From Bacteroides caecimuris (lineage in GTDB: Bacteria > Bacteroidota > Bacteroidia > Bacteroidales > Bacteroidaceae), in contig NZ_CP015401.2 of assembly GCF_001688725.2 (NCBI RefSeq), positions 4,596,001 through 4,660,000 on the forward strand: a stretch of DNA of 64,000 bases, written 5' to 3'. Shown here piece after piece: positions 51,466-64,000 of this stretch. Below the pieces are notes generated by a model. It saw only the letters and a program-made list of their open reading frames with translations, did no database searches and was not told the DNA's origin. Made by a program: the position numbers and the translations under genes. Within the stretch, counting starts at the first letter, position 1; every line of letters starts with the position of its first letter.

Positions 51466-53497
51466 AGACTGTCCGAGAACTCCTCTTTAAACAGAGGTTT
51501 GTCGTTGTCCCTCCGCAATAGCCCCTGTTTGTAGCATGGTTTAACATTAGATATTCATGCTTCTCATTCATTTTTCTTATCTTTACCTAAGCTAAGAAAC
51601 AGAGTTATGGCATATAAGAAAGGTGAAGAACGACAACAGAAAGTACTTTTCCCCGATTGCATAGACGACTATGTTGAGGAGGATGCTCCGGTTCGTTTGT
51701 TTGATGCATTCGTTGATAGTTTGGATATGGGCAAGTTAGAGTTTATACGGAACATTCCCAAAGCCACGGGAAGTCCCGGGTACGACCCTCGTGACCTGTT
51801 AAAACTGTATATTTATGGTTACTTTTACCAAGTGCGTTCATCGCGCAAGTTGGCCCGTGAGTGCAAATGCAACGTGGAGGTGATGTGGCTACTGGGCAAA
51901 TTATATCCTGATTTTCGCACCATTTCCGATTTTCGCAAGGATAATAAGGATAGCATAACTAAAGTATTCAAGGAGTTCAATAAGTTCTGCATGGGGTTGA
52001 AGCTCTTCTCCAAGTCATACATATCTATTGACGGAAGCAAGTTCAAGGCTGTAAATGCCAAGGATAACAATTTTACGCTCAACAAACTTGACGACCGTAT
52101 CAAACGTTTGGATGAACATATCACTTTATACATGGAAGAGCTTGACTCATGCGATCGGGAAGAAGGTCGCAAACTTTCCAGAGAAGAACTTGAGCACAAA
52201 CTGAATGTCTGTAAAGAACGCAAAGCCCGTTACGAAGCATACCGCACTACATTAGAGGAGTCTAATGAAAAACAGATATCGCTTACTGACCCGGATGCAA
52301 GACTGATGAAAGCGAATGAAGGTTTCTGCGTAGGCTATAACATGCAGACGGCTGTTGACGCGGACAGCCACATGATTGCCGGCTTCCGGGTCACTAACAG
52401 TCCTACTGACCATGGCCAAATAACAAACGTAGCTACAGATGTGAAAAAAGACTATGGGATTGACATCCTTGAGACTACAGCAGACAAGGGCTATGAATGC
52501 CCCGAAGACCATACCGACGCACTTGCATCGGGCATTGTACCCAATGTCATCCGGCGTGACGGTGGCTGCACCGAGCAGGTTGAGTTTGAGTACATTGGAA
52601 ACACCATAACCGATGAACAGAAAGTTAGTACCAACCCCGAGGACTTGAAGGCATGTCTTCAAGCCGGAGTAATTCCCGATGTCTACAACGGAATCTTAAC
52701 TGATATGGAAATTGTTGAGGTAAAAAAGCGTACATTGCCGACATCCGATTCAGCAGTGCTGGACATGACTTCCGAACAAATGCGTGCCAAAGCTCTTGAA
52801 GGCTTCTTCGTTAGGGATGCCGAACGTAACCTTGTCTATTGTCCGCAAGGTGAGATTCTTAGACAGAAATCCATTAAACGAAACGGCAATATACGTTACT
52901 GCAACAAGTTGGCCTGCAAGAAATGCAAATGCAAGTGTACCATATCCAAGTTCAAGGAAGCGGACTTTAGTAAGGATGATCTAATAAAGGTTGCTGATAC
53001 CCGAAGGAAACAAGATGCAGCAAATGACGGCAATGCGAATCTGAAACCAACAAGAATAACCGTTATGAAAAAGGTGGTACGCTATGTGCTACATCTTGAC
53101 CAAAAGAAAATGGATAATCGCAAATGTTTGTCGGAACATCCGTTCGGGACAATTAAAAGAACGCTCGGATACTACTATTTTTTACTAAAAGGTTTTGCAA
53201 AAGTAGGTGCAGAGATGGGATTGCTCTGTCTATCCTATAACCTACGTCGTGCTATAAGTCTCAAAGGTGTACCCGCACTGCTTGCCGCACTCCGATAAAA
53301 GACTTGCCGAGGTGCACATCCTTACGAATATAGGTAATAACCACATTTTAAAGTGCATTTTAAGCTTCTAAAACCGATTATCATGAGAGAATTTATTCTT
53401 TCAATTGAAAAACAAATTCCACCAGATAGTCTCTACGACCTCAAATCCGCTGCAAGAATGCCATCCTACAGCGAAAATCAGAGTTCTCGGACGGTCT
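51466..53497 (+). mobile_element. IS1182-family insertion sequence
   Basis: Terminal inverted repeats AGACTGTCCGAGAACTC (51466-51482) and GAGTTCTCGGACGGTCT (53481-53497) match at 16 of 17 positions. They enclose one intact transposase gene. Outside the repeats lie GGGGG (51461-51465) and GGGGGG (53498-53503), either a short target duplication or part of the ends. Total about 2.03 kb. It separates the TonB receptor from its divergent regulator. Confidence 0.85.
51607..53298 (+). CDS. IS1182-family transposase
   Basis: 563 aa, intact. The N-terminal block YDPRDLLKLYIYGYFYQVRSSRKLARECKCNVEVMWLLG is the InsH/IS1182 N-terminal domain. YISIDGSKFKAVNAKDNN carries the first catalytic Asp, ETTADKGYECPED the second, and the C-terminal HPFGTIKRTLGYYYFLLKGFAKVGAEMGLLCLSYNLRR carries the final acidic region of this family (DDE group). 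A Cys-rich cluster (CNKLACKKCKCKC) lies before the C-terminal domain, as is usual. Intact length suggests recent insertion or activity. Confidence 0.93.
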   Translation: MAYKKGEERQQKVLFPDCIDDYVEEDAPVRLFDAFVDSLDMGKLEFIRNIPKATGSPGYDPRDLLKLYIYGYFYQVRSSRKLARECKCNVEVMWLLGKLYPDFRTISDFRKDNKDSITKVFKEFNKFCMGLKLFSKSYISIDGSKFKAVNAKDNNFTLNKLDDRIKRLDEHITLYMEELDSCDREEGRKLSREELEHKLNVCKERKARYEAYRTTLEESNEKQISLTDPDARLMKANEGFCVGYNMQTAVDADSHMIAGFRVTNSPTDHGQITNVATDVKKDYGIDILETTADKGYECPEDHTDALASGIVPNVIRRDGGCTEQVEFEYIGNTITDEQKVSTNPEDLKACLQAGVIPDVYNGILTDMEIVEVKKRTLPTSDSAVLDMTSEQMRAKALEGFFVRDAERNLVYCPQGEILRQKSIKRNGNIRYCNKLACKKCKCKCTISKFKEADFSKDDLIKVADTRRKQDAANDGNANLKPTRITVMKKVVRYVLHLDQKKMDNRKCLSEHPFGTIKRTLGYYYFLLKGFAKVGAEMGLLCLSYNLRRAISLKGVPALLAALR

Positions 53498-56732: not shown

Positions 56733-56868
56733 TTGTCCCATATATTGTGGGAAAGTATTCCCTACTAATTGGGAAAATATTCCCTATTAACTGGGAAAAT
56801 ATTCCCTTATTTTGTGGGAACAAATTCCCATAATATGAGGGAATACTTTCCCGCATATTATGGGACAA
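56733..56868. repeat. Palindromic tandem array (core GGGAAnnnnTTCCC)
   Basis: TTGTCCCATA (56733-56742) and TATGGGACAA (56859-56868) close the array as a perfect 10-bp inverted repeat. Inside are five units of 22-24 bp, each with a palindromic core: GGGAAAGTATTCCC, GGGAAAATATTCCC twice, GGGAACAAATTCCC and GGGAATACTTTCCC. The first and fifth cores are inverted copies of each other. The layout is the same as the array at 13887-13972, but with a different core sequence. Confidence 0.75.
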
Positions 56869-59995: not shown

Positions 59996-61060
59996 TTAAT
60001 CGATATATTGTTTGATTTGTTCCACTGGTATTGATAATTGTTCGGATATCTCTTCAACCGATGTCCCATTGTTACAGAGCATTTTAACCATTGAACGAAT
60101 CACTTGCTCTTTCTGCTCAATTACCTGCTCTTTCTGCTCAATCACTTGTTCTTTCTGCTCAATCACTTGTTCTTTCTGCTCAATCACTTGTTCTTTCTGC
60201 TCAATCACTTGTTCTTTCTGCTCAATCACTTGTTCCTTCTGCTCAATCACTTGCTCTTTCTGCTCAATCACTTGCTCTTTCTGCTCAATTTCCTTATTCT
60301 TCATCATAATTGTCGTATCCCTGTCCTCTATTTCAGAAAGAATCTCATCTTCTATCTCCATGGCACGACGTACGTTGGGTGCGGCGGCAGCTTTCAGCAG
60401 GCGGTGGACAACACACTTCACCTCATCATCAAGATGCTCATCATTAATTTCCAGATAGTGTTCGCTATCAGCCTGACGATATTCCTGGTCGAATACACTC
60501 AACAGACGTTCGAGGCGGTTGCGGGTTCGTCCGGTGAGGAAAGGAATCTGTACGATGATACTGTCGTGAGTCAGGCTCTCGATGAAGGGGTCGGGAGCAG
60601 GAAGAGGATTGTCGTCATAATCCAGATAGCGGCGGCGTACGTAAACCACCGGTTCGGTAAGGTCACCCAAGGGATGTCCCAGGATGTAGATAGAGATAAT
60701 GGGCAAACCATACGTACGCCTTTGCCCATACTCGTTCTTTTTTTCGACAATGTTCTCCTTGTCGAGATACTGAGTGCCTAAATACTGGCGGAAGCGCAAG
60801 GTTTCGGTGATGAGCCAAGTCTTTTGCAGTTCGATAAGGACAAGGTGTTCGGATCCGTCGTCCTCACGAATCTTTGCTGAGAAGTCTATACGGAAGAGTG
60901 AGATGCGAGTCTGTTCCATGGAAGTATACTCGTGGCGGCGCATTTCAAGGTCTATGATTTCCTTTTTGAGCAATGCGGAAAGTAATATCTTGGCGACTTT
61001 CTTGTCTTCCATCAAGAACTTGAAGACAGCATCGTAAATGGGATTGGCGATGATAGTCAT
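59996..61060 (-). CDS. Rpn-family (PD-(D/E)XK) nuclease/putative transposase with heptad tandem repeat
   Basis: 354 aa. The N-terminal domain (about 1-240) starts MTIIANPIYDAVFKFLMEDK and holds RIDFSAKI and LVLIELQKTW, the Asp and ExQ/K residues of the PD-(D/E)XK fold, with FRQYLGTQYL and LPIISIYILGHPLGD as further family blocks. Residues about 253-316 are nine tandem copies of EQKEQVI, a perfect heptad that predicts a long coiled coil. The C-terminal EEISEQLSIPVEQIKQYI is a family tail. The group includes RpnA-like recombination-promoting nucleases and is much copied in Bacteroides. It has its own -7 element (RC of 61085-61092). Confidence 0.88.
   Translation of the reverse strand: MTIIANPIYDAVFKFLMEDKKVAKILLSALLKKEIIDLEMRRHEYTSMEQTRISLFRIDFSAKIREDDGSEHLVLIELQKTWLITETLRFRQYLGTQYLDKENIVEKKNEYGQRRTYGLPIISIYILGHPLGDLTEPVVYVRRRYLDYDDNPLPAPDPFIESLTHDSIIVQIPFLTGRTRNRLERLLSVFDQEYRQADSEHYLEINDEHLDDEVKCVVHRLLKAAAAPNVRRAMEIEDEILSEIEDRDTTIMMKNKEIEQKEQVIEQKEQVIEQKEQVIEQKEQVIEQKEQVIEQKEQVIEQKEQVIEQKEQVIEQKEQVIRSMVKMLCNNGTSVEEISEQLSIPVEQIKQYID
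60109..60297 (-). repeat. Nine-copy 21-bp tandem repeat inside the Rpn-family gene
   Basis: Plus-strand unit TTCTGCTCAATCACTTGTTC (plus one base) occurs nine times with only a few silent changes (TTGTTC/TTGCTC/CTGCTC). Being a multiple of three, gain or loss of units keeps the frame and changes coiled-coil length by one heptad. High identity suggests recent expansion by slippage or recombination. Confidence 0.9.
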
Positions 61061-61092: not shown

Positions 61093-61304
61093 CTTCTTTT
61101 ATTTGATTAATGAGAGGGTGGAAAGGTTAAATTCTCCTATCAGAAAGGAATTAGGACATTCTAAGTTACAGCGATTGATTCCTTAATATTTTAGGATTAA
61201 AGAAGTATCAGCTTTGTTTAAAACTACTATTTGAACTCTGAACTCATCCATTTTAAGTACAGTCCTGAATAAACTTTTGGTGCGTTTGTTTTACATTTTT
61301 TATT

Positions 61305-61507
61305 CCTCTCTTGGTAAGAGAAGTAGTCTTTGCTGCAAATGTATACAAAATACGTATAAAAACAACTTTAAACAGAAATTAATTTGTCTTTATCGTTGTT
61401 TTTAACACTAAAATGCGCATTTTGTGATTATCTGTGCAGTTTTCTTTTCTCATTTTCATCTATTTAGAGATATACTCTTACCTCGATCTTTCTCTTACCA
61501 AGAGAGG
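61305..61507. promoter_or_regulatory. Putative invertible promoter segment (phase switch)
   Basis: CCTCTCTTGGTAAGAGAA (61305-61322) and TTCTCTTACCAAGAGAGG (61490-61507) are a perfect 18-bp inverted repeat enclosing 167 bp. Inside is one consensus Bacteroides promoter on the minus strand: GTTG (RC 61363-61366), 19 nt, TACATTTG (RC 61336-61343). It now points left, away from the fimbrial genes. Inversion would move the start point to about 61484, reading right into 61643. Invertible promoters of this size flanked by short inverted repeats are well known for Bacteroides capsule and fimbrial loci. No recombinase gene lies in the window. The remainder of the 582-bp gap 61061-61642 holds no gene that I can support. 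Confidence 0.65.
61336..61366 (-). promoter_or_regulatory. Promoter inside the invertible segment, OFF orientation
   Basis: On the minus strand GTTG-N19-TACATTTG. Transcription would start near 61328 and leave the segment through the left repeat, toward the Rpn-family gene. Confidence 0.6.
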
Positions 61508-61642
61508 TATTGAAAATGAGTAGAAATGACAGCCTAAAATCAAAAAAATATAGCCTATGTACATACTTATTGTAATATAAAACATCAATCGAAAGAATAC
61601 CGATTAACGACGAATAATCAAGAATAATAATGTAAATAAGAC

Positions 61643-62227
61643 ATGAAACGCAAGATTTTATTTCTGATGATAGCCTTGTCAGTTTCTTTGCATTTTAGAC
61701 TAAATGCACAAGAGGTGGCAATAAAGACGAATGTGCTATCCGATGCTTTTCTGAATGTGAATGCCGGAATCGAAGTTTCCGTAGCGCCCCGTTGGTCAAT
61801 AGACTTGAGTGGTGACTTCAACGGGTGGAACCTGTCACATGGGCGCCGTTGGAAACACTGGTTGGTGCAGCCCGAAGCCCGTTATTGGTTCTGTGAAGCC
61901 CTTGGCGGACATTTTGTCGGTCTGCATGCCTTCACCGGGCAGTATAACGTGGGACATCTCGACACTGACTTCAAGTTCCTTGGTACCAATTTCGCCAATT
62001 TCAAGACCCATCGCTACCAAGGATGGATAGGGGGGCTTGGATTAGCCTATGGATATAGCTGGTTGTTGGGAAAGCATTGGAATCTTGAAGCCGAAATCGG
62101 CTTAGGTTGGGCTTATACCCGCTTCGACCGTTTTGAATGTGTAGGCTGCGGACGCCGAGCTGGTAAGGGACATCACAACTATGTAGGTCCGACGAAAGCA
62201 GCTGTCAACCTCGTATATGTTTTCTGA
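61643..62227 (+). CDS. DUF3575 outer-membrane protein of the fimbrial operon
   Basis: 194 aa with a signal peptide (MKRKILFLMIALSVSLHFRLNAQ). The mature part fits DUF3575: VAIKTNVLSDAFLNVNAGIEVSVAPRWSIDL, WLVQPEARYWFCEALGGHFVGLHAF, and a C-terminal barrel-like strand ending KAAVNLVYVF. It is probably a small outer-membrane barrel. It opens the fimbrial operon; the DUF3868 gene follows 31 bp later. In Bacteroidetes this gene pair precedes Mfa1-type fimbrillins and probably serves assembly or anchoring. No promoter of consensus type facing it is seen outside the invertible segment. Confidence 0.88.
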   Translation: MKRKILFLMIALSVSLHFRLNAQEVAIKTNVLSDAFLNVNAGIEVSVAPRWSIDLSGDFNGWNLSHGRRWKHWLVQPEARYWFCEALGGHFVGLHAFTGQYNVGHLDTDFKFLGTNFANFKTHRYQGWIGGLGLAYGYSWLLGKHWNLEAEIGLGWAYTRFDRFECVGCGRRAGKGHHNYVGPTKAAVNLVYVF

Positions 62228-62258: not shown

Positions 62259-63707
62259 ATGAAATTACAAAAAATATGGATAGCCGCCCTTGCCGTAATG
62301 GCAACAATGGGGACGGCAACTGCCGGCATATCCGTTGCAAGTCCGGCAACCGGCACACTGCCGGAACAAGACCCGCGTGTGAGAGACCTGAAGGTGGAAC
62401 GCTCGGAAAATAACCTTTTCGTATCCATGCAGCTTGACCTGTCGGAACTTACCCTCAAGTCTAACCGCGAAATTACCTACCTGCCCGTGCTGACTTTCGG
62501 TGAGCGGCATTTGGAACTTCCGCGTGTCATCGTAGCAGGTCGTAACCGTTACATACAGAACCTTCGCCACGGTGACCTCTCGCACGGTGCCCGTTTGTGT
62601 CGCCCGGGAAAAGTGATAGACTACTCTGCCCTCATTCCTTACGAACAGTGGATGGAGACAGCCACGCTGTCTCTCTTCGAAGACGAATGTGGCTGCGGAT
62701 TCAACGTTGTTTCGCACGACCGTAAAGACTTGGCAGTGCTTGACTTTACGCCTAAAGTGTTCAAGCCCGCATACGCTTTCGTCACTCCTGTTGCAGAACT
62801 GGTGAAGACACGCGAAGCGCGCGGTTCCGCCTACATCGATTTTCCCGTCAACCGTACAGAGATCCGTCCCGATTATCGCCGCAACCCCGAAGAATTGCAA
62901 AAGATACGACATACGATTGATGTACTGCGCAGCGATGCCGACACACGCATTGTCTCCGTTTCTATCGAAGGCTTCGCTTCGCCCGAAGGCCCTTACGCCA
63001 ACAACGAACGTTTGGCGAAGGGACGCACCGAAGCACTGCTCGGCTACGTTCGCGGGCTTTATACGTTCGACGCTTCGATTATGAAATCCTCTTGGGTAGC
63101 GGAAGACTGGGCAGGGCTGCGCCGTTACGTCCAATCCTCTGACATTGCTCAGAAGGCAGACATACTTTCCATCCTCGACATGGAAAACCTTACACCGGAC
63201 GCCCGTGAGTGGAAACTCAAGTCCGCCTATCCGGAGCAATACCGGTTTTTGTTGGAAAATGTCTATCCAGGGCTTCGCCATTCGGACTATGCGGTAGAGT
63301 ACATCATTCGTTCTTACACCAATGTAGAGGAAATCAAGGCAGTGATGAAGAGTGCTCCGCAGAAACTGAGCCTTCATGAGATGAATGTCGTGGCACAGAG
63401 TCTCGAACCTGGTTCGGACGAATATTGCGAAGTGTTCGAAGTGGCGGTACGTATGTATCCGGACGATCCGGTAGCCAATCTCAATGCTGCTAACATTGCT
63501 CTTGGTCGCGATGAACTAGAACGCGCGGCAGGTTATCTTGCCAAGGCGGGCAATACTCCCGAAGCAACGTATGCCCGTGGCATTTATGCTGCCAAAGGTG
63601 GCGACTATGTAGAAGCCGTTCGTTTGTTCGACGATGCATCGAAAGCAGGAGTCCGTCAGGCTGCGGAAGCCGTAGCGCAGCTGCGTGAATTGGGATTGAT
63701 AGAATAA
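62259..63707 (+). CDS. DUF3868 / OmpA-like protein of the fimbrial operon
   Basis: 482 aa with a signal peptide (MKLQKIWIAALAVMATMGTATA). Residues about 35-130 are the DUF3868 domain (VRDLKVERSENNLFVSMQLDLSEL, ITYLPVLTFGERHLELPRVIVAGRNRY). About 190-290 is OmpA-like: SAYIDFPVNRTEIRPDYRRN and VSIEGFASPEGPYANNERLAKGRTEALLGYV, a peptidoglycan-binding pattern. The end (about 380-480) is TPR-like. It probably anchors or assembles the fimbria in the envelope. It lies between DUF3575 and the fimbrillin gene with short gaps. Confidence 0.88.
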   Translation: MKLQKIWIAALAVMATMGTATAGISVASPATGTLPEQDPRVRDLKVERSENNLFVSMQLDLSELTLKSNREITYLPVLTFGERHLELPRVIVAGRNRYIQNLRHGDLSHGARLCRPGKVIDYSALIPYEQWMETATLSLFEDECGCGFNVVSHDRKDLAVLDFTPKVFKPAYAFVTPVAELVKTREARGSAYIDFPVNRTEIRPDYRRNPEELQKIRHTIDVLRSDADTRIVSVSIEGFASPEGPYANNERLAKGRTEALLGYVRGLYTFDASIMKSSWVAEDWAGLRRYVQSSDIAQKADILSILDMENLTPDAREWKLKSAYPEQYRFLLENVYPGLRHSDYAVEYIIRSYTNVEEIKAVMKSAPQKLSLHEMNVVAQSLEPGSDEYCEVFEVAVRMYPDDPVANLNAANIALGRDELERAAGYLAKAGNTPEATYARGIYAAKGGDYVEAVRLFDDASKAGVRQAAEAVAQLRELGLIE

Positions 63708-63743: not shown

Positions 63744-64000
63744 ATGAAGAAAAGTAATTTATTATTCAGTGCTGTCATGGCACTGGCAATGGGGTCGCTG
63801 GCAAGCTGTTCTTCCGACGACTTGGTGACCGAAGTTCAAGGTCAGGAAACAACGGTCGACCACGACCAGGTGCGTTATCTGAACGTTACGATTGCAAGTG
63901 CGGGAGGAGTAGGAACACGTGCTGAAACTACTGACAATGATTTTCTGCAAGGTGATGAGCCGAAAGAAAATTTTATAGAAAACATGACTTTTGTATTCTA
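63744..64000 (+). CDS. Mfa1-like fimbrillin lipoprotein (5' part, cut by window edge)
   Basis: The first 85 codons of a lipoprotein are present. MKKSNLLFSAVMALAMGSLASC has a lipobox (LASC, Cys at 22), followed by SSDD, like the surface-export signal of Bacteroidetes lipoproteins. The continuing sequence (YLNVTIASAGG, TRAET, PKENFIENMTFVF) fits the N-terminal strand of type V fimbrillins of the Mfa1/FimA kind. After export the lipidated precursor is cut by an Arg-specific protease (family knowledge); the TRAE Arg is a candidate site. It starts 36 bp after the DUF3868 gene. Confidence 0.8.
   Translation, partial: MKKSNLLFSAVMALAMGSLASCSSDDLVTEVQGQETTVDHDQVRYLNVTIASAGGVGTRAETTDNDFLQGDEPKENFIENMTFVF

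Follow-up and report, generated by a model that had tools for sequence, protein, structure and literature searches.

A short DNA segment upstream of a type V pilus operon is very probably an inversion switch: a tyrosine recombinase, most likely acting in trans, would flip it at two CTCTT-N3-AAGAG sites and thereby turn the pili ON or OFF. The segment lies near the end of the window, as we call the whole 64-kb stretch of DNA analyzed here. Its single consensus promoter points away from the operon. The segment is one of a family of promoter-bearing segments with a common site and a common layout. A clade of tyrosine recombinases co-occurs with this family.

A promoter between inverted repeats precedes a type V pilus operon

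The predicted invertible segment (positions 61305-61507, no strand assigned) is 203 bp long and consists of 18-bp perfect arms and a 167-bp spacer. The sequence CCTCTCTTGGTAAGAGAA is located at 61305-61322, and its exact reverse complement is found at 61490-61507. Among pairs up to 1 kb apart, this is the longest perfect inverted repeat of the window. In a repeat search, the arms extended to 29 nt at 90% (left arm, plus strand, 61294-61322; right arm, minus strand, 61490-61518). An earlier note on this DNA had described a perfect 18-bp inverted repeat enclosing 167 bp, with nearly palindromic halves. We recovered the same coordinates, and each arm contains the near-palindromic core CTCTT-GGT-AAGAG, at 61308-61320 and 61492-61504, respectively. 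The note had also suggested looking for further copies of the repeat in the genome. When this search was run with the pattern TCTCTT-N3-AAGAGA, it returned two places in the 4.84-Mb genome, and both were the arms; the reversed pattern was present at four places. At the DNA level, no other genome in a set of 61 (the window's own plus 60) was matched across the segment, and the matches of other genomes started in or close to the DUF3575 gene, downstream of the segment. The 18-mer of the arms had 0 matches in viral contigs. A second perfect inverted repeat of 15 bp, GGGAAAGTATTCCCT, with copies 74 bp apart, was detected at positions 56749-56852 of the window.

The segment contains one consensus promoter of the Bacteroides type, GTTG-N19-TACATTTG, at 61366-61336 on the minus strand. 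It points away from the operon, and the distance from the end of its -7 box to the outer edge of the core site is 28 bp. The -7 consensus used, TAnnTTTG, is in line with PMC12632263 (excerpt). Outside the segment, no TAnnTTTG facing the operon was found between 61061 and 61642, a search that covers the consensus promoter only, other sigma factors being possible; one weaker TAnnTTnG faces the operon at 61187 (plus strand). Thus, two further statements of the earlier note hold, namely that exactly one consensus promoter is present within the 167 bp, pointing away from the operon genes, and that no operon-facing consensus promoter is present outside the segment. With its short bounding repeats and one promoter that would face the operon once inverted, the window segment has the sequence features of an inverton.

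In the present orientation, the promoter faces a 354-amino-acid (aa) ORF (59996-61060, minus strand), which is located 276 bp downstream of the -7 box. The OFF orientation may therefore not be silent for neighboring genes. Profile searches against Pfam and NCBIfam revealed no family above cut-off for this ORF. It harbors a 21-bp tandem repeat (60098-60289, 9.1 copies, 95% match), which codes for a seven-residue repeat and could vary in copy number without a frameshift.

The first gene of the operon (61643-62227, plus strand) encodes a DUF3575 protein of 194 aa (PF12099, 239.6 bits). It is followed on the same strand by a gene for a DUF3868 protein of 482 aa (62259-63707; PF12984, 33.1 bits at a cut-off of 27) and by the start of a fimbrillin gene (63744-64000; Fimbrillin_C, PF15495). 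The latter continues past the window (L020:4744-6720) and encodes 658 aa in full. Farther downstream, genes for an Mfa2-type anchor (PF08842), a 451-aa ORF without a Pfam match, and a 1072-aa P_gingi_FimA protein (PF06321) were found. The combination of pilins with DUF3575 and DUF3868 genes, with Pfam scores above the cut-offs for all but the 451-aa ORF, identifies a type V pilus operon. The match to the NCBIfam Mfa1 model NF038041 reached 120.8 bits, which is below the cut-off of 130. The operon encodes stalk and anchor pilins and a putative tip pilin.

The same genome contains a paralogous pilus operon (G000:C1:2338449-2339033, L021). A consensus promoter faces this operon, and perfect inverted repeats of more than 10 bp are absent from the upstream stretch examined. 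Near it, at L021:18525-19001, the first 159 residues encoded by a transposase-like gene of the window (51607-53298) recur; by eye, this gene looks like one for a transposase.

The segment belongs to a family of paired sites in Bacteroidales

In simulated windows (first-order Markov), an 18-bp repeat with a spacer of 50-1000 bp occurred in 1 of 100. A repeat of this length alone is expected in about 1 in 100 windows, so that the weight of the evidence lies in how the site family recurs. Among 46 loci, mostly upstream stretches of DUF3575 genes, similar arms were present in two besides the window, in genomes G010 and G086. In one of these the promoter faces the gene, and in the other it faces away. 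We therefore searched for pairs of CTCTT-N3-AAGAG located 131-191 bp apart. At least one such pair was detected in 30 of 158 genomes of the genus, compared to 0 of 158 for the reversed control. When genomes were sampled evenly across the order, 13 of 393 had site pairs, with 0 for the reversed control among the matches listed. A scan of named genomes returned at least 117 loci; 80 of these are listed with titles, which include Phocaeicola, Paraprevotella, and Muribaculaceae.

When the genus set and the named-genome scan were pooled, at least 154 distinct segments were obtained, at least 128 of them with complementary centers. The 26 of 154 with unmatched centers were left out ahead of the promoter count, and the promoter played no role in the choice of the 128 segments. 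The unmatched pairs were distributed unevenly: 14 were found among the 80 listed loci, all without Bacteroidales titles, one more in the genus set (G109), and the remaining ones in the 37 loci without listed titles. The 65 of the 80 loci whose titles we classed as Bacteroidales contained 66 pairs, all 66 of which were center-matched, and 56 of these had a -7 box at 26-30 bp. The 13 loci with other titles had a single center-matched pair among 15, which is what chance matches should look like; 2 loci were unclassed.

An outward TAnnTTTG no more than 60 bp from a segment end was present in 114 of the 128 listed segments (shuffled mean, 11.7), and the full TTG-N17-22-TAnnTTTG was present in 49 (shuffled mean, 5.7). 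Outward boxes at both ends were present in 4. The boxes clustered in position: 93 of 121 outward -7 boxes in these segments ended 27-29 bp from the segment edge, suggesting a layout kept by selection. Furthermore, the center triplets, read inward, were identical in 40 of the 41 pairs of the genus set, which contained 18 different triplets; with shuffled partners, the mean was 3.3. Tyrosine recombinases need identity of the exchanged region between partner sites. Alike within pairs and varied between loci, the center triplet appears to behave like a crossover region. The window segment, with the matched arm centers GGT/ACC and its box at 28 bp, fits into this family.

At 15 of the 128 listed segments, the window included, the first regulatable gene was a DUF3575 or DUF3868 homolog. 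Thirteen DUF3575/DUF3868 loci had a scorable box, 5 in ON and 8 in OFF orientation, with the window among the latter; these counts, like those of adjacent recombinases below, come from automated ORF calls, and in several cases the contig ends close to the segment. The occurrence of both states at like loci supports the interpretation in the earlier note, which had regarded the segment as the invertible promoter of a type V fimbrial operon in the OFF state. In a Pfam scan of regulatable first genes (89 of 142 ORFs), the commonest families were DUF3575 (14), NusG-like (9), and AraC-type HTH (7). The family shares are indicative only, because the ORFs were picked by hand, and long, short, and doubtful ones were left out, including a 437-aa DUF3575 relative in L121. 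Between the segments of the window and G010, the best alignment in either orientation scored 74 (shuffled maximum, 76.5). At five loci (L128, L145, L153, L124, and L141), a third site or two nested pairs were found by the segment, as if repeats had been duplicated.

A segment of the family is inverted at one of four homologous pilus loci

Genomes G083, G086, G095, and G156 have in common the arrangement recombinase, segment, DUF3575 gene. Across the six pairs of these genomes, the flanks toward the recombinase were 71-92% identical and those toward the gene 74-96%. The segments of G083, G086, and G156 mutually aligned in the same orientation. In contrast, the G095 segment aligned in inverted orientation to those of G086, G083, and G156 (scores of 198, 172, and 169 vs 74, 76, and 77 for the direct orientation), while the flanks of G095 were 71-89% identical to those of the other three. 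As judged from these alignments, an inverted segment between conserved flanks indicates that inversion has occurred at homologous pilus loci of other species. The four loci share the operon genes with the window locus, but their adjacent recombinase is absent from it. One inverted segment among four homologous loci also argues for the invertible-promoter interpretation, which for the window strain, represented by one assembly in one orientation, is a prediction.

A recombinase clade accompanies the sites

A gene matching the clade profile was present at most 600 bp from the segment in 39 of the 128 listed segments; a clade gene beside the site is thus common but not defining. All 41 segment-adjacent clade genes are transcribed toward the segment, and 39 of the 41 scored above 300 bits. 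In this orientation, they resemble the "non-regulatable" invertases described in PMC11892184 (excerpt). In a tree of 44 recombinases, 20 of 21 site-adjacent ones grouped with two from the window's genome (support, 95/93). The 21st (L121) was placed just outside this group, with weak support (87/54). The next group comprised three further recombinases of the window's genome, whose neighboring repeats are of a different class.

One of the two clade members of this genome is an intact tyrosine recombinase of 402 aa (G000:C1:1955924-1957132; PF00589, 34 bits at a cut-off of 27.1), and the other is a copy with an in-frame stop (G000:C1:1126252-1127370), assigned to the clade by the tree. In the intact protein, residues R251, K277, and R350 are invariant, and H373 and Y382, which occur in at least 90% of 20 rows, are also present. 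We take these five residues to be the catalytic positions of a tyrosine recombinase. A PDB profile search gave one XerC-like match (4a8e, E 9e-8). Comparison of recombinases with NCBIfam gave matches below the cut-offs only, and one frame was without any match. Relatives of the candidate enzyme were found at 95-98%; the two that carry names come from Bacteroides ovatus and several Bacteroides, respectively. The candidate's locus may therefore move independently of the switch.

No clade recombinase lies beside the window segment, in which it departs from the adjacency seen elsewhere in the family. The distance between switch and candidate gene is 2.70 Mb in assembly coordinates, or approximately 2.14 Mb in the opposite direction should the contig be circular. 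The search for the recombinase that the earlier note had suggested yielded a candidate in the genome, its intact clade member, and none locally: the window has no listed match to the tyrosine or serine families. Within 19.5 kb examined near the candidate gene, we found no site of the family, strict or relaxed, and no perfect inverted repeat of at least 12 bp with a spacer of 60-600 bp; merely imperfect, far-apart repeat pairs and one palindrome were present.

Other recombinase loci were also inspected. Beside the OFF-oriented segment of G095, a recombinase frame (L131, 6321-7214) has a C-terminus that departs from its relatives and lacks the catalytic end; elsewhere, G095 has at least three full-length clade matches (595-650 bits). 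In the window's genome, a second class of inverted repeats, GTTACTTCTTAGGTAACGGA-like and 251-263 bp apart, is represented by three pairs, each by its own tyrosine recombinase of the neighboring clade (G000:C1:2168024-2168314, L296; 2606225-2606513, L295; 2997276-2997578, L294). Repeats like those of the second class were also present upstream at DUF3575-gene loci of two other genomes (L011, approximately 479-864; L013, approximately 346-857). This suggests that the operon type may be under two switch classes.

Recombinase and sites co-occur without adjacency

A clade match at E<=1e-135 was present in 27 of the 30 genomes with site pairs (the misses were G074, G109, and G122) and in 38 of the 128 genomes without them (Fisher 1e-9, with a threshold set after the scores were known). 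In 10 of the 30 genomes, no clade gene lay by any pattern-matching pair, and 9 of these 10 had one elsewhere (Fisher 3e-4), a count in which some contigs are short. Because the genomes are related, both Fisher values overstate independence. In G145, one of the nine, a clade gene was also located by two sites spaced just outside the pattern.

In a second tree, the stand-alone enzymes of G010, G163, G145, G002, G077, G085, and G020 were placed near that of the window's genome, with modest support (87/89). The same neighborhood contained rows of G030, G087, G119, and G061 and one site-adjacent row, G092. The enzyme of G147, also a genome without adjacency, was on a long branch outside this neighborhood. 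Closest to the candidate was the G010 enzyme, although this position was weakly supported (86/73). At five loci (L057 of G064, L060 of G161, L066 of G066, L073 of G067, and L081 of G022), a full-length clade recombinase is in line upstream of DUF3575, and no site of the family was found between them. A precedent for action in trans is BF2766 (tsr19), a tyrosine recombinase of B. fragilis that flips a local and a distant promoter (PMC4747536, excerpt). Action of the recombinase in trans is plausible, and, going by clade membership and co-occurrence, the 402-aa recombinase is most likely the invertase of the window segment.

Alternative explanations

The switch could be real and yet be flipped by another tyrosine or serine recombinase of the genome, which we regard as unlikely, though the strongest of the alternatives. 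In its favor, 58 tyrosine-recombinase family matches (56 over the cut-off) and 3 serine family matches were counted in the genome, and the candidate gene has no site of the switch family nearby. However, the tree contains 23 recombinases of this genome, and none but the candidate and the stop-interrupted copy fall into the site-adjacent clade, and three of the others adjoin the different repeat class. A serine invertase as the enzyme was considered and rejected.

It is quite improbable that the segment, invertible in ancestors, is now locked in the OFF orientation in this strain. A locked state would agree with the single known orientation, with the stop in the second clade copy, and with the other fimbrial operon of the genome, which has a facing promoter and no long repeat. 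Against this, the arms are still perfect and are the sole two such sites in the genome, which also retains an intact clade recombinase with conserved catalytic positions.

Still less likely, the promoter could be fixed and serve ORF 59996-61060, with the arms as regulatory hairpins or protein-binding palindromes on either side of it. The arms are near-palindromic, one of them formed a hairpin on folding, and the promoter indeed faces this ORF at 276 bp. Nevertheless, between conserved flanks homologous segments are found in either orientation, the center triplets vary across loci yet match within pairs, and recombinases adjoin many of the listed segments. Operator or hairpin palindromes were rejected on these three grounds. 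Finally, a chance inverted repeat, although one simulated window held a repeat as long, is refuted by the family evidence, namely the position, the 28-bp promoter spacing, and the genus-wide recurrence.

Proposed switch mechanism

We propose that the inversion switch works as follows. In the present orientation, the promoter would fire leftward toward ORF 59996-61060, leaving the pilus operon without a facing consensus promoter. A tyrosine recombinase, presumably the 402-aa enzyme encoded at G000:C1:1955924-1957132 and acting in trans, would then flip the segment at the two CTCTT-N3-AAGAG sites, so that the promoter faces the pilus operon. In silico inversion, with the start taken 4 nt past the -7 box, gave a leader of approximately 162 nt. 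The ON transcript is thus predicted to start about 162 nt upstream of the DUF3575 ATG and approximately 11 nt before the recombination site, so that the mRNA would have the site, as a hairpin, close to its 5' end. When the predicted leader was folded, its first 45 nt formed a hairpin consisting of the recombination site (-10.5 kcal/mol). In B. fragilis, transcription was lower when more repeats lay between promoter and genes (PMC4747536, excerpt).

More tentatively, and with somewhat less than even confidence, we suggest a Bacteroidales family of promoter switches with triplet-addressed sites, a promoter 28 +/- 1 bp from the edge, a 5' hairpin, and a dedicated, trans-capable recombinase clade able to act across megabases. 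The window switch would be a stand-alone member of this family, served wholly in trans.

Because the switch has a defined site, a fixed promoter geometry, and only one candidate enzyme, pilus phase variation is directly testable. By means of the site family, further Bacteroidales switches can be predicted from sequence. Matching of the central triplet may explain how several switches per cell could avoid cross-recombination. In gut Bacteroides, attachment to glycans, to cells, and to other bacteria is probably governed by type V pili, whose binding targets are little known (PMC12632263, excerpt).

Comparison with known systems

The fimS switch is flipped by FimB and FimE, which are locally encoded tyrosine recombinases, and type 1 fimbriae are of the chaperone-usher type. 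Like the window segment, fimS of Escherichia coli is a short promoter-bearing segment that serves fimbriae (PMC5903667, excerpt). The genes of the window operon, however, are of the fimbrillin type and unrelated to chaperone-usher fimbriae.

Mpi of B. fragilis is comparable to the trans model in that one enzyme serves many distant promoters, but it is a serine invertase that acts on capsule loci (PMC12632263 and PMC5903667, excerpts). Closer in enzyme type are IVp-I and IVp-II of B. fragilis, a local and a distant promoter both flipped by the tyrosine recombinase BF2766; unlike the window segment, which precedes a pilus operon, they control an exopolysaccharide operon and a cluster that includes a lipoprotein gene (PMC4747536, excerpt).

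Surface proteins, with reference 116 among them, are listed together with regions undergoing DNA inversion in PMC12632263 (excerpt). That reference concerns a fimbria-like locus of B. fragilis with phase-variable, pilus-type surface genes, as in the window. Our comparison with this locus is by description, and the window segment differs in having no adjoining recombinase. The enzyme of the B. fragilis locus is reportedly Tsr15.

The hCom2 invertons near fimbrillin genes (groups 137, 112, and 122) were detected by reads, and there the fimbrillin genes are in regulatable position (PMC11892184, excerpt). The site sequence CTCTT-N3-AAGAG was not found in the literature searched, which included parts of the main text of PMC11892184; the motifs of that study are in its supplements, and the site class may thus already be listed there. 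Phase variation of pilus-type loci is already known, as are invertons next to fimbrillin genes (PMC12632263 and PMC11892184, excerpts). To these, we add a further member, together with a site family, a promoter geometry, and a candidate enzyme for the pilus switch.
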